DNA of 37,039 bases from assembly GCA_005878385.1 (NCBI GenBank), contig VBMN01000076.1, positions 1 to 37,039 on the forward strand, given 5' to 3'. The translations under genes were made by a program, and so were the position numbers. Positions 20,984 through 31,523 of the stretch are shown here, piece after piece; position 1 is the first letter of the stretch, and each line of letters begins with the position of its first letter. The DNA comes from Methanobacteriota archaeon (GTDB lineage: Archaea; Thermoplasmatota; Thermoplasmata; RBG-16-68-12). The notes beneath the pieces are model-generated. The model was not told the origin of the DNA. It ran no database searches and saw only the letters and a list, made by a program, of their open reading frames with translations.

Positions 20984-22075
20984 CTAGGGGATTGCGAGGA
21001 CGACCTTCCCGAATTGTTCCCCGCGGCCGAGATACTCGTGGGCGGCCCGCGCGTCTTCGATCGGGAAGACACGGTCGACGACGGACTTGAGCCGACCCAT
21101 GAACACCAATTTCATGACCTCCTCGAACTCCCGCTGGTTGGCCATCGTGGATCCAAGAACGGAAAGTTGGCGCCAGAACAGATACCGGGCGTCGAGCTCG
21201 AGCATCGATCCCGTCGTCGCACCAGGGACCACGACCCGACCTCCCTTCCGCAGCGTGCGCACGGAGTCCTTGAACGTCGCGGTACCGACATGGTCCACGA
21301 TCACATCGACCCCGCGTCGTCCCGTCAGCTCCCATACGGCCTTGGACCAGGGGACCGCCTTGTAATTCACCAGGACGTCCGCGCCGAGGGACTTCGCCTT
21401 CTGGAGTTTCTCGTCCGTCGAACTCGTCACGAAGACGGTACACCCCGCCAGCTTGGCGACCTGGATCGCGGCGGTCGAAAGCCCAGATCCCGCGCCGAGG
21501 ATGAGGACGTCTTCGCCGGGGCGGACCTTCGCGCGGGAGACCAGCATTCGCCACGCGGTCATGAATGCCAAGGGCGCGGCCGAGGCGGCCTCGAAGGACA
21601 TGTCGGTCGGAATCTTCAGGGCATTCCGCGCCGGGACCGCGACCTGCTCGGCGTACGTTCCCGGCAGGTGTTCTCCCAGGATCCGGTAATCGACGCACCC
21701 GGAGTCTTCGCCCTTCAGGCAATATTCACAGCGCCCGCAGGAGATCCCCGGATTCAGTACGACGCGGTCCCCGACCTCAAGGTCCGTGACGTCGGAGCCG
21801 ACCGAGGCGATGTGGCCGGCTCCGTCCGCGCCGAGGATGTGCGGCAGAGCGAGCTTGAGGGTCGGGATCCCTTCCCGGACAAGCAGATCGAGGTGATTCA
21901 AGGCCGCGGCGTGCAAGCGGACCACGACTTGGTCCGGCCCGGGGACCGGGTCCGGATAGTCCTGCACGAACTCGAGGACCTCGGGCCCGCCGTACTGCGG
22001 CAGGACGACGGCCTTCAGCGTACCACCTGCGCGACGCCGGCGAACGCAGCGGTCCTTGATAAGGGCCGCCGTCAA
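20984..22075 (-). CDS. MDR-superfamily zinc-type alcohol dehydrogenase/quinone oxidoreductase
   Basis: LKAVVLPQYGGPEVLEF, GADGAGHIASVGSDVTDLEVGDRV, structural-zinc Cys cluster CGRCEYCLKGEDSGC, LILGAGSGLSTAAIQVAKLAGC. TTG start overlaps the SUI1 stop. Confidence 0.93.
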   Translation of the reverse strand: MTAALIKDRCVRRRRAGGTLKAVVLPQYGGPEVLEFVQDYPDPVPGPDQVVVRLHAAALNHLDLLVREGIPTLKLALPHILGADGAGHIASVGSDVTDLEVGDRVVLNPGISCGRCEYCLKGEDSGCVDYRILGEHLPGTYAEQVAVPARNALKIPTDMSFEAASAAPLAFMTAWRMLVSRAKVRPGEDVLILGAGSGLSTAAIQVAKLAGCTVFVTSSTDEKLQKAKSLGADVLVNYKAVPWSKAVWELTGRRGVDVIVDHVGTATFKDSVRTLRKGGRVVVPGATTGSMLELDARYLFWRQLSVLGSTMANQREFEEVMKLVFMGRLKSVVDRVFPIEDARAAHEYLGRGEQFGKVVLAIP

Positions 22076-22368
22076 CGGACGTTGTATCCTTTCTGCTGTA
22101 GGAGGCGGACGACATCCTTGCGGTGGTCGCCTTGCAGGACGATCACGCCTTGCTTGCCGGATCCGCCGGTCGCGAGTCCCTTCTTCAGTTCCCGCGCGAG
22201 CTTTTCGGCTTCGTCCGGTTTCGACTCAAGGCCTCGCACGACGGTCACGGCTTTTCCGTATCGGCGTGTGTCCATCTCGACGGACAACTGGGTCGTCTCA
22301 CGGCCCAGGTCCTCGCAGACGCAGATCTCCTTCGGCAATCCGCAAGTCGCGCAGATCCCCGCGATCAA
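22072..22368 (-). CDS. SUI1/eIF1-family translation initiation factor
   Basis: ICATCGLPKEICVCEDL, GKAVTVVRGLE, ELKKGLATGGSGKQGVIVLQGDHRKDVVRLLQQKGY. TTG start. Confidence 0.95.
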   Translation of the reverse strand: MIAGICATCGLPKEICVCEDLGRETTQLSVEMDTRRYGKAVTVVRGLESKPDEAEKLARELKKGLATGGSGKQGVIVLQGDHRKDVVRLLQQKGYNVR

Positions 22369-23342
22369 GCCGCCTCCGATGGGTTCTCCTTCGTGAGGAG
22401 GAAATCCTTCAGTAGACGATAGTGTTTTCGGATGGTGACCTCGCTCACGCCGGTCAGGCGGGCGATCTGGGCCTGGGTCAAGGGGACTTCCAAGTCCTCG
22501 GACGCCAGGTAGAGCGCGCCGGCCGCAATCCCGACCGGGGAGTTCGCTTCGAGGATCTTCGAGTCCTTCCCTTGGGCGACCAGGTTCAAGGCCCTCTCGC
22601 CGACCCGGGCATCGAGCCCGAGCTGGGAAGCGAACCGGGGGACGAAATCTTCGGCACGGCTCGCCCGGCTGAAGACGCCGAGTTCCCGCGCGACGACCTT
22701 CGCCGTCAGGGAGATCCGGTGGACCGTTACGCCCGTGGCCTCGGCGAGCTCGTGGAGACCTCGCGGGGCCCCCAACTGCTTCGCGGCCAGATACACAACG
22801 GCCGCCACGATGGCATCCATCGAGCGACCGCGGGACAGACCCGCCTCAATTGCCTTCCGGAGCAGGATCGCGGCTCGCTCCCGGAACGCCGGCGCGAGGC
22901 CGAGTCGGGAGGAGAGACTGGAAAGCTGGGCGAGGCCAGGCGCCAAGGCCCGTTCCGTGCGATCGTATCGGGTCCAGCGGCTCACCCGCCGCAGGCGGTT
23001 CAGGGCGGCCACGCTGCGGGCGTCGATCGGATTCCCCTTCGCGTCCCGCAGGCCATTGCCGACCATGGAGCCGAGGCCCTTGTCCGGCGCCATCACGGAC
23101 GGCGGCGGACCCGCCCGGATCCGGTCGTCCCCTTCGAAGGTCGTCCAGTCAGGACCCTGGTCCACAAGGCCCTCGTCGACGACGAATCCGCAGTTGTCGC
23201 ACACGCGTTCCCCGCGGACAGGGTCGACGTACAGGGCGAAGCTGCCGCAGTTCGGGCAGCGCGCGGGGTCCCGACCTTCGGCCGGTTCCCGCTCCCGTCG
23301 GAACGTCATGACGCGTGTGTTCGTATTCGCAAATTGACTCAT
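22365..23342 (-). CDS. tfb: archaeal transcription initiation factor B (TFIIB homolog)
   Basis: Zinc ribbon CPNCGS...RVCDNCGFVVDEGLVDQGPDWTTFE; two cyclin repeats with GRSMDAIVAAVVYLAAK and SPVGIAAGALYLASEDL; LTGVSEVTIRKHYRLL. ATG at 23342. Confidence 0.95.
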   Translation of the reverse strand: MSQFANTNTRVMTFRREREPAEGRDPARCPNCGSFALYVDPVRGERVCDNCGFVVDEGLVDQGPDWTTFEGDDRIRAGPPPSVMAPDKGLGSMVGNGLRDAKGNPIDARSVAALNRLRRVSRWTRYDRTERALAPGLAQLSSLSSRLGLAPAFRERAAILLRKAIEAGLSRGRSMDAIVAAVVYLAAKQLGAPRGLHELAEATGVTVHRISLTAKVVARELGVFSRASRAEDFVPRFASQLGLDARVGERALNLVAQGKDSKILEANSPVGIAAGALYLASEDLEVPLTQAQIARLTGVSEVTIRKHYRLLKDFLLTKENPSEAA

Positions 23343-23689
23343 TGCGTCACCTCGCGAGATCCGGCCGCCATGACCCATCGCGTGGCCCAAACCTCCAGGT
23401 CGCGGATCGCCTCGAACAGGTCCTGCCCTTTCGGCGACAGGCGGTACTCGACCGCCACCGGCCGGTCCAGGTGGACCTTTCGCTCCGCGATCCCGACTTC
23501 CTCGAGCTCCTTCAGCGTCTTCGCGAGGGAGCTCTGGCAGATCCCCGTGGCCACGCGCAGTTCGTTGAACCGCTTGGGCCCGGTGAGGAGGCTGTGCAGG
23601 ACCGTCAATTTGAGCTCGGAGCCGATCACCTCGAAGGCGAACATCGCTCCGCACCCCGGTCCCGAACAGGGACTCTCTTCCTCGGCCAT
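23339..23689 (-). CDS. HxlR-type winged-helix regulator
   Basis: CGAMFAFEVIGSELKLTVLHSLLTGPKRFNELRVATGICQSSLAKTLKELEEVGIAERKVHLDRPVAVEYRLSPKGQDL. Confidence 0.88.
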   Translation of the reverse strand: MAEEESPCSGPGCGAMFAFEVIGSELKLTVLHSLLTGPKRFNELRVATGICQSSLAKTLKELEEVGIAERKVHLDRPVAVEYRLSPKGQDLFEAIRDLEVWATRWVMAAGSREVTQ

Positions 23690-23727
23690 GGTGTTTCGTT
23701 CTCGCAATAGTATATGGGGTGCCCGCC

Positions 23728-23740
23728 GTATAAATAGTTT
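23728..23740 (-). promoter_or_regulatory. strong putative TATA/BRE of the HxlR-TFB-SUI1 operon
   Basis: Minus strand aaactatttatac, about 40 nt upstream of ATG 23689. Confidence 0.6.
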
Positions 23741-23861
23741 CGTTTCCGTACCACGTTTCGGGTGAGAACCAGGTTCAACTTAGAAACGAGTCGCTCTCGA
23801 GAGGCGTCACAGCCAGCGGTCACGACGGCCTTGCTCTCGGTAAAGAACCGGATCGCGACCC

Positions 23862-29304: not shown

Positions 29305-30717
29305 TCACGCGGCCTTTCGACGCAGGAGAGACGCGAACCAATTTCTGGCGGGGTGCGGAGGCGCGACTATAGGCGGGGGAGCCGACCCGACCCGCAGGAC
29401 GATACCATCCACGCCATGGATGTACACCTTCGATTCGGCTGGCAAGTTCTCGTCCGAGATTGCCTGCCAGAGTTCGCCTCGATGGGTCACGTAGCCTTTC
29501 TCCCCGGGCCGGACCTCCTCCTTCACAATCGCGGGCAGTCCAGTCATCTCACCGACGATCGGGGTCCGGTGTCGAACCTGCTGAACTTTGTACATGGCGA
29601 AGAGCAGAAAGCCGCCGAAGAAACCGGTCGGTGTAAGCAGGGCCGCAAGGAAGTACAGTTGATAGTCCGGTGAGACGGCGAACCGCGGCGGTCGGAGAGG
29701 GGCGAGGAACGCAGCGGCAAGGATAATCGCAATGATGCCGCCGATGCCGAATATCCCGTGTCCCGGCGTCTTGACTTCGATGATGATCAGCACGACGCCG
29801 ACGATGAAGAGGAGGAGCGCGATCGGATCGACGCTGAACCCGAGGCCGATCAAGGCGAGGAGGAGGACGATGACTCCGGCGATTTCCGCACCGTGTCCCG
29901 GCGCCGATATCCCGAAGATCACGAGATAGATTCCGAGGATGAGGAGCAGGGACGAAACGAGTGGGTCGGACAACGCCCGGAGGAGCGAGACCCGGCTGGA
30001 CGAACTGAACGTCACGATCTCGGCGCCCGCCGTATTCAGGGTGAAATCCTTGTAAACGGTCGCATTGCTTTGAACGACCACCCGGCGGCCGTTCGCGAAG
30101 GTAGCGAACTCCTCCGGACTCTGTGCGACGAGTTCCGTGGCGCCTCGGCTCTGGGCTTGCGTCGCATTGAGGTTGAGGTTATCGACGACGAAGGCAGAGG
30201 CCAGATCGATCGGACGGTTGTGAAGCGCAAGCTCCTCCGAAATCGCCGTCACGACCGCGTTGATGATCTTCGGGTCGGTCACAGGAACGACGCCGCCCGG
30301 CCCGACCTCGACCGGCTGAACGGAGCCGATCGTCGTGCCGGGAGCCATGGCGGCGAGATCCGTGGACACGAGGAGGATGGTCCCCGCACTCCATGCATGC
30401 GCCCCGACCGGCCCGACCCAACCAAGAATGGGCACATCGCGCGCGTTATTGAACATCTCCGCAAGCGCGACGGTTTCTGCAAGCCCCCCGCCCGGCGTAT
30501 CGAACCGGATCATGAGGGCCGAATACCCGCCACTCCGCGCCTCACCTACGGCCTCTTGCAGGTAGTCGACCGTGGAGCGATCGATCGCGCCAGTCACCTC
30601 GGCGAGGAGAATCCGCGGCCCCTGGGCTCGGACCGCGGGCATCGCGCCCGCCAGGACGGTGGCCAGAAGGCCGATCAGCAGGACGACGCGCACTCGCCTC
30701 GCGGCAACGGACCTCAC
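29305..30717 (-). CDS. NfeD family protein with ClpP-class serine protease domain
   Basis: Signal-like N-terminus, RFDTPGGGLAETVALAEMF, AHAWSAGTILL, AAMAPGTTIGSVQP, C-terminal TM block and NfeD OB domain. Confidence 0.92.
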   Translation of the reverse strand: MRSVAARRVRVVLLIGLLATVLAGAMPAVRAQGPRILLAEVTGAIDRSTVDYLQEAVGEARSGGYSALMIRFDTPGGGLAETVALAEMFNNARDVPILGWVGPVGAHAWSAGTILLVSTDLAAMAPGTTIGSVQPVEVGPGGVVPVTDPKIINAVVTAISEELALHNRPIDLASAFVVDNLNLNATQAQSRGATELVAQSPEEFATFANGRRVVVQSNATVYKDFTLNTAGAEIVTFSSSSRVSLLRALSDPLVSSLLLILGIYLVIFGISAPGHGAEIAGVIVLLLALIGLGFSVDPIALLLFIVGVVLIIIEVKTPGHGIFGIGGIIAIILAAAFLAPLRPPRFAVSPDYQLYFLAALLTPTGFFGGFLLFAMYKVQQVRHRTPIVGEMTGLPAIVKEEVRPGEKGYVTHRGELWQAISDENLPAESKVYIHGVDGIVLRVGSAPPPIVAPPHPARNWFASLLRRKAA

Positions 30718-31523
30718 TCTTTCTTGTCCCCTTTTCTGGCGAGGGCTGCCGTGAGGGATGCGACTTCCCCCGTGATGTCTCCCGCGGCCGTCGTGTTCGT
30801 GACGACGATCATGTTCTTCTCCCGGGCGATCTCCGTCAACGTCTGCAGTTCTCGAAGGCGCATCGCGCTCGGGGCCGAGCCGTAGAGCATGGCTGCCTCG
30901 CGCATCTTCTCCGCCGCTTGAAACTCGCCTTCCGCCATGATCACGCGCGACCGGCGCTCCCGCTCCGCCTCCGCCTGCTTCGCGATCGCCCGGACCATCG
31001 TGTCCGGCAGGGAGACATCCCGCAGGGTTACGGCTTGTACCTTGATCCCCCAGGGCTCCGTCGAGATGTCGAGGAGGACCTGGATCCTCTTACTGAGCTC
31101 TTCGCGCTTCGAAAGGAGCTCGTCGAGTTCGACCTGGCCGAGCACGTCCCGGAGGGTCGTCTGGGCGAGCAAGTTCGTCGCCATGATGTAGTTCTGCACT
31201 TCCGTGACGGCTTTCAGCGGATCGTACACGCGGTAGTAGACGACCGCATCGACTTCGACGGACACGTTGTCCCGGCTCACGACCCGTTGGCGGGGCACGT
31301 CAAACGCGACGGTGCGGAGGTCAATCAGGACCCGCCGATCGAAGATCGGGATGATGACGGTCAGCCCGGGACCTTTCGGCTGGCTCAAGAGACGGCCGAG
31401 TCGGAAGATCACGAGCCGCTCATATTCCCGGACGACCTTGACGGCCGCCCGCAGTATCACAAGCACCACGATAATCGCCAGTACCGTCGCAAGGATGAGT
31501 TCCTCCCCCGCCATACTCGCCAC
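30714..31523 (-). CDS. stomatin/SPFH domain protein
   Basis: VVREYERLVIFRLGRLLSQPKGPGLTVIIPIFDRRVLIDLRTVAFDVPRQRVVSRDNVSVEVDAVVYYRVYDP. Confidence 0.96.
   Translation of the reverse strand: MASMAGEELILATVLAIIVVLVILRAAVKVVREYERLVIFRLGRLLSQPKGPGLTVIIPIFDRRVLIDLRTVAFDVPRQRVVSRDNVSVEVDAVVYYRVYDPLKAVTEVQNYIMATNLLAQTTLRDVLGQVELDELLSKREELSKRIQVLLDISTEPWGIKVQAVTLRDVSLPDTMVRAIAKQAEAERERRSRVIMAEGEFQAAEKMREAAMLYGSAPSAMRLRELQTLTEIAREKNMIVVTNTTAAGDITGEVASLTAALARKGDKKE

Follow-up and report, generated by a model that had tools for sequence, protein, structure and literature searches.

Multiple TFB paralogs occur in haloarchaea, Pyrococcus and Sulfolobus, and in such archaeal sets extra divergent TFBs are found beside a highly conserved canonical TFB. 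The gene for the translation initiation factor aIF1 is typically located in the S10 ribosomal operon (L29-SUI1-Rpp29-S17), a location that is usual for aIF1 and not strictly defining; in Asgard archaea, the order is L29-IF(Sui)-RNP1-S17 (PMC10833476). Haloferax volcanii has a pair of aIF1-like genes, HVO_1946 and HVO_B0284, and the second gene is dispensable (PMC3828320). In Bacillus, regulators of the HxlR/DUF24 family control oxidoreductases or formaldehyde fixation. These proteins use an N-terminal Cys to sense quinones, HOCl and diamide, and Cys14 of HypR is a redox-sensing residue (PMC6943732). The archaeal locus described here brings genes of all three kinds together, and it differs from each of these systems. 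In contrast to the known multi-TFB sets, its TFB is bound into an operon alongside a regulator and an initiation factor, an arrangement that we did not find in a literature search. In contrast to the Bacillus regulators, its HxlR is linked to a general transcription factor and aIF1, and the same search yielded no described operon joining HxlR with either of the two. Finally, whereas H. volcanii has two aIF1-like genes in one archaeon, here the second type appears to replace the first.

The window, i.e., the whole stretch of 37,039 nucleotides that was analyzed, is one contig of a metagenome-assembled genome (MAG) of 1.87 Mb that is 77% complete. Judging by the type of samples that yielded such MAGs, the organism probably belongs to the order RBG-16-68-12, also known as Ca. 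Angelarchaeales (PMC9038741), and named relatives carrying the operon TFB include soil 'Euryarchaeota EA_n' MAGs and RBG_19FT_COMBO_69_17. Three genes follow each other on the minus strand: an HxlR/DUF24 winged-helix regulator of 116 aa (positions 23339–23689; Pfam HxlR 72.2 bits, cut-off 20.8), a divergent full-length TFB of 325 aa (22365–23342; Pfam TFIIB and Zn_Ribbon_TF, both above cut-off) and an aIF1 (SUI1) of 98 aa with a TTG start (22072–22368; PRK00939 108.3 bits, cut-off 98). Gene calls and the Pfam and PRK profiles thus bore out the coordinates and identities given in the initial annotation. Its two overlaps within this unit were also seen, ATGA at the HxlR stop and TFB start (23339–23342) and TTGA at the TFB stop and SUI1 start (22365–22368), but the three genes are separate and overlapping, not fused as it had stated. 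Shine-Dalgarno sequences are located inside the upstream genes (GAGGTGA ahead of TFB and GGAGG ahead of SUI1), and the short leader of HxlR has none and is preceded by a TATA box. Such overlaps are not rare: a 4-nt gene overlap is also present at 30714–30717 of the window. The NfeD-like and SPFH/stomatin-like genes at 29305–31523 (minus strand), an ordinary pair, overlap by 4 nt.

An MDR/quinone-oxidoreductase-like gene lies downstream of SUI1 (20984–22018, minus strand). It had been proposed to start within a further TTGA overlap at 22072–22075 and to act as the oxidoreductase partner of the operon. We rejected a fourth overlapping gene because in G017, the nearest relative (TFB 98% identical), the frame opened by this TTG runs for only 6 codons before a stop, and a later start has its own Shine-Dalgarno sequence. 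Homology begins only near residue 20 of the TTG frame, and both G018 and G019 have an ATG at the equivalent MDR start. In the window, the gene most likely starts at the CTG at 22016–22018, which is located 53 bp past the SUI1 stop and downstream of a conserved CTTATC, with GGTGGT 3 nt upstream. MDR follows SUI1 in 12 loci of the genus and was not found beside the operon in either genome of a second family of the order. A conserved, co-directed oxidoreductase, as would mark an HxlR-controlled detoxification operon, was therefore not detected, and the proposed partnership was not supported. Between SUI1 and MDR, a CTTAT(C/T)TAGG-like element (22058–22063 in the window, minus strand) is conserved in the genus and is possibly a separate MDR promoter.

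The operon-type TFB was present in 16 of 19 genomes of the genus. One additional genome, G011, contains HxlR and the promoter element at the edge of a contig, where the sequence breaks off. G012 contains two versions of the operon start (contigs C200 and C92, with TFBs 96% and 84% identical to that of the window), which suggests mixed strains in this bin. Wherever neighbors of the operon TFB were sequenced in the genus, HxlR was upstream and SUI1 downstream, without a counterexample. Both genomes of the second family also contain HxlR, TFB and SUI1 in unchanged order, with identities of 57–59%, 49–53% and 57–59%, respectively, and with GTGA as the TFB/SUI1 overlap. The initial annotation had made its reading depend on this order recurring in relatives, and it is kept across the genus and in the second family, which excludes a chance arrangement. 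Because MDR is missing beside the second-family operon, the conserved core is HxlR-TFB-SUI1, and MDR is a genus-specific neighbor. When 400 genomes of the class were searched with a profile, operon-type TFBs scored >500 bits if they had 250 residues or more, and a single truncated one scored 299 bits, against at most 292 bits for all other TFBs; the HxlR-TFB-SUI1 order was not found in these 400 genomes outside the two families. Within the genus, dN/dS was far below 1 for all three genes, indicating purifying selection (TFB 0.01–0.14, SUI1 0–0.08 and HxlR, the least constrained, 0.13–0.29).

The operon TFB has a zinc ribbon, the B-reader motif DKGL, two cyclin repeats and a BH2 recognition helix, GVSEVTIR. 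With 233.4 bits, it falls below the cut-off of 384 for the canonical archaeal subfamily (PRK00423), and it forms its own clade apart from canonical TFBs (100/100 support). The window's genome also encodes a canonical TFB, on contig C114, which is nearly invariant across the order. Based on the profile score, the separate clade and the presence of this canonical protein, the operon TFB is best described as an extra divergent TFB and not the housekeeping one. This supports the alternative TFB suggested at the outset.

The TATA box previously noted ahead of HxlR is present (CTATTTATA, 23729–23737, minus strand), and a TATA element occurs at this position in all aligned upstream regions of relatives. 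Judging from spacing only, transcription would start near 23707. Directly upstream, on the same strand, are two operator-like 18-bp direct repeats that end at the TATA box: unit 1 (CCTGGTTCTCACCCGAAA, 23756–23773) and, in tandem with 18-bp spacing, unit 2 (CGTGGTACGGAAACGAAA, 23738–23755). They share the pattern C-N-W-GGT-N4-A-N3-GAAA, which is conserved in the 15 genus genomes that include DNA upstream of HxlR, and in the window they are identical at 12 of 18 positions (P ~0.002 versus adjacent 18-mers of the window). The 3' end of unit 2 is at the BRE position, and the DNA beyond the repeat block, further upstream, is not conserved. We also considered unit 1 as an inverted repeat; however, perfect 5-bp arms were found in only 2 of 11 genomes, and direct repeats were preferred. 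The repeat-pair pattern, with at most 2 mismatches, matched once and only once in each of the 15 genus genomes; every match lay before HxlR, and the reversed pattern, used as a control, had no match in the genomes searched. When we looked for a wider HxlR regulon by searching 19 genomes for the full repeat pair (at most 2 mismatches), only the operon was matched. Since the pair was found only at its own operon, it suggests autoregulation by HxlR at this candidate operator. In the second family, unit 2 was partly recognizable and unit 1 was not clearly seen; thus, the operator may be specific to the genus.

The closest solved relatives of the regulator are YodB, HypR/YybR and HxlR, Bacillus proteins of the same family. 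Three cysteines, Cys8, Cys13 and Cys51, are invariant in an alignment of eight sequences from the two families. Cys13 aligns with Cys14 of HypR, that is, with the conserved N-terminal sensing cysteine. Cys51 is near Cys49, the partner residue in HypR, but not at its position. By analogy, a thiol switch in this protein is plausible, and an aldehyde or quinone as the signal is a guess. Of the redox-responsive HxlR previously proposed, the part that stands is the compatibility of the invariant cysteines with thiol sensing; a stress-dependent on/off switch is unlikely because SUI1 is the only aIF1 found in most operon carriers.

The operon SUI1 belongs to the same protein family as the aIF1 of the archaeal S10 operon. 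It has a CxxC...CxC start, an RRYGK loop and LQGDHR, and the closest solved structure (4mo0) is an aIF1. It was the only SUI1 match in the window's genome, a single copy being nearly always the case across the class. In four other families of the order, SUI1 occupies the S10-operon interval between L29 and Rpp29 (its location was judged only in families that yielded a SUI1). In the window's genome, however, L29 is directly followed by Rpp29, and the interval is sequenced, intact and devoid of SUI1. The same was observed in a total of 12 genus genomes, in 3 of 3 genomes of a sister genus and in both genomes of the second family, and five genus genomes retain SUI1 in the S10 operon. Gaps in the MAGs were rejected as an explanation for the group because the L29-Rpp29 interval was sequenced in each genome. 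From completeness values, and with independence assumed, the probability that all 12 genus genomes miss a second aIF1 copy by chance is ~1e-8; in any single genome, a second aIF1 could still lie outside the assembly, as MAGs are incomplete.

Phylogenetic analysis of SUI1 yielded a split between clade A (S10 type) and clade B (operon type) with 99/99 support, in a tree that was built on 97 columns and whose long inner branch was flagged with a warning. Clade B is formed by the second family, the sister genus and the genus operons. A tree of S10-operon proteins implies three or more losses of the A copy, each in a B-bearing lineage, a count that presumes no regain of A in the five genus genomes bearing it. 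According to these trees, the deep clade B has thus taken over from clade A on three or more occasions, and the operon SUI1 differs from the S10 aIF1 in clade, in standing beside TFB and HxlR and in the deletion of the S10 copy. In the sister genus (L048, L049 and L051), a single clade-B SUI1 is located upstream of a TldD-like gene. SRP19-like and EF1B-like genes are nearby and neither HxlR nor the operon TFB is, so that this is a third location of aIF1. As aIF1 is essential in H. volcanii (PMC3828320), aIF1-B very probably does the general aIF1 job in lineages lacking A. The initial annotation had placed SUI1 in a dedicated switch, possibly a stress response; SUI1 is not an accessory stress factor, being in most operon carriers the only aIF1 found, with the S10 copy lost. 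Two further observations concern SUI1 genes in the class. Members of f15, a large family in the class search, have one SUI1 each, which scored much lower than elsewhere in the class (mostly 1e-11 to 1e-17) and could represent a further aIF1 that is divergent or has moved. In G022, a second short fragment after the operon (L108:1808–1894 and L109:2812–2898) matches the first 28 residues of SUI1 and is possibly a decayed duplicate.

We consider it probable that the locus is an autoregulated operon that makes a divergent extra TFB and usually the only aIF1, probably with a redox input. One TATA promoter with two tandem 18-bp repeats would drive HxlR, TFB and aIF1 from one mRNA, and the stop/start overlaps would couple translation of TFB and aIF1. 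HxlR most likely binds the repeats and controls its own operon, and since unit 2 runs into the BRE, the bound protein could either block or aid binding of TFB/TBP. As most relatives, like the window's genome, have the S10 aIF1 deleted, the operon must supply this essential factor; it is probably expressed at all times, at a level adjusted by HxlR, and such constitutive, tuned expression is more likely than an on/off stress switch. The likely input is a thiol signal at Cys13, together with Cys8 or Cys51, by analogy to HypR and YodB. We infer co-transcription, repeat binding and autoregulation by HxlR, the redox input and promoters served by the extra TFB from the genomic evidence above. A more far-reaching form, in which a thiol-sensing HxlR governs, through one autoregulated mRNA, a dedicated TFB as well as the only aIF1 of the cell, is speculative, and we would regard it as improbable at present. 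If true, the redox state would shift promoter choice and start-codon selection together, making the operon a single point at which initiation of transcription and of translation is controlled jointly.

Other explanations were also considered. The gene for aIF1 may have simply drifted next to an information-processing gene, HxlR being a plain, non-sensing autoregulator and TFB having no special regulon. Such a housekeeping relocation, which we view as unlikely but worth keeping in mind, is consistent with SUI1 and TFB being under strong purifying selection, with a repeat pair present only before its own operon and with the clade-B SUI1 of the sister genus, which does without HxlR and TFB and therefore does not need them. 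However, a passive move does not predict that the exact gene order, the invariant HxlR cysteines and the promoter element would all be kept. The original proposal, in which electrophile or oxidative stress acts through HxlR to induce an alternative TFB, an extra aIF1 and the oxidoreductase together, appears still less probable. The conserved HxlR cysteines, the N-terminal Cys sensing of quinones, HOCl and diamide in Bacillus (PMC6943732) and the location of MDR downstream of SUI1 in the genus are in its favor. On the other hand, a factor that is the only aIF1 found in most carriers is not for stress only, and MDR has its own start and a probable promoter and is not beside the second-family operon. 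Lastly, all genomes used are fragmented MAGs, 64–98% complete, and an assembly or binning artefact or contamination might be suspected. Its probability is negligible: it is refuted by independent contigs, from 15 or more genus genomes and two of another family, that all show the HxlR-TFB-SUI1 order, a class-III aminotransferase gene upstream is also kept in several genomes, and the order of SUI1-B matches the S10-protein tree.

The observation that started this work was largely right, but its interest lies elsewhere, in that SUI1 is the only aIF1 found in most genomes and not a stress accessory. One promoter appears to supply parts for the first step of both transcription and translation. The repeated loss of the S10 aIF1 and its replacement by a paralog show that an archaeon can change how it is supplied with a core translation factor; the paralog in question is linked to an extra TFB, with a regulator of bacterial type in control. 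A natural comparison is available between genomes retaining both aIF1 genes and those with only one. With a candidate operator and defined cysteines, the operon offers a testable case of shared control of transcription and translation initiation.
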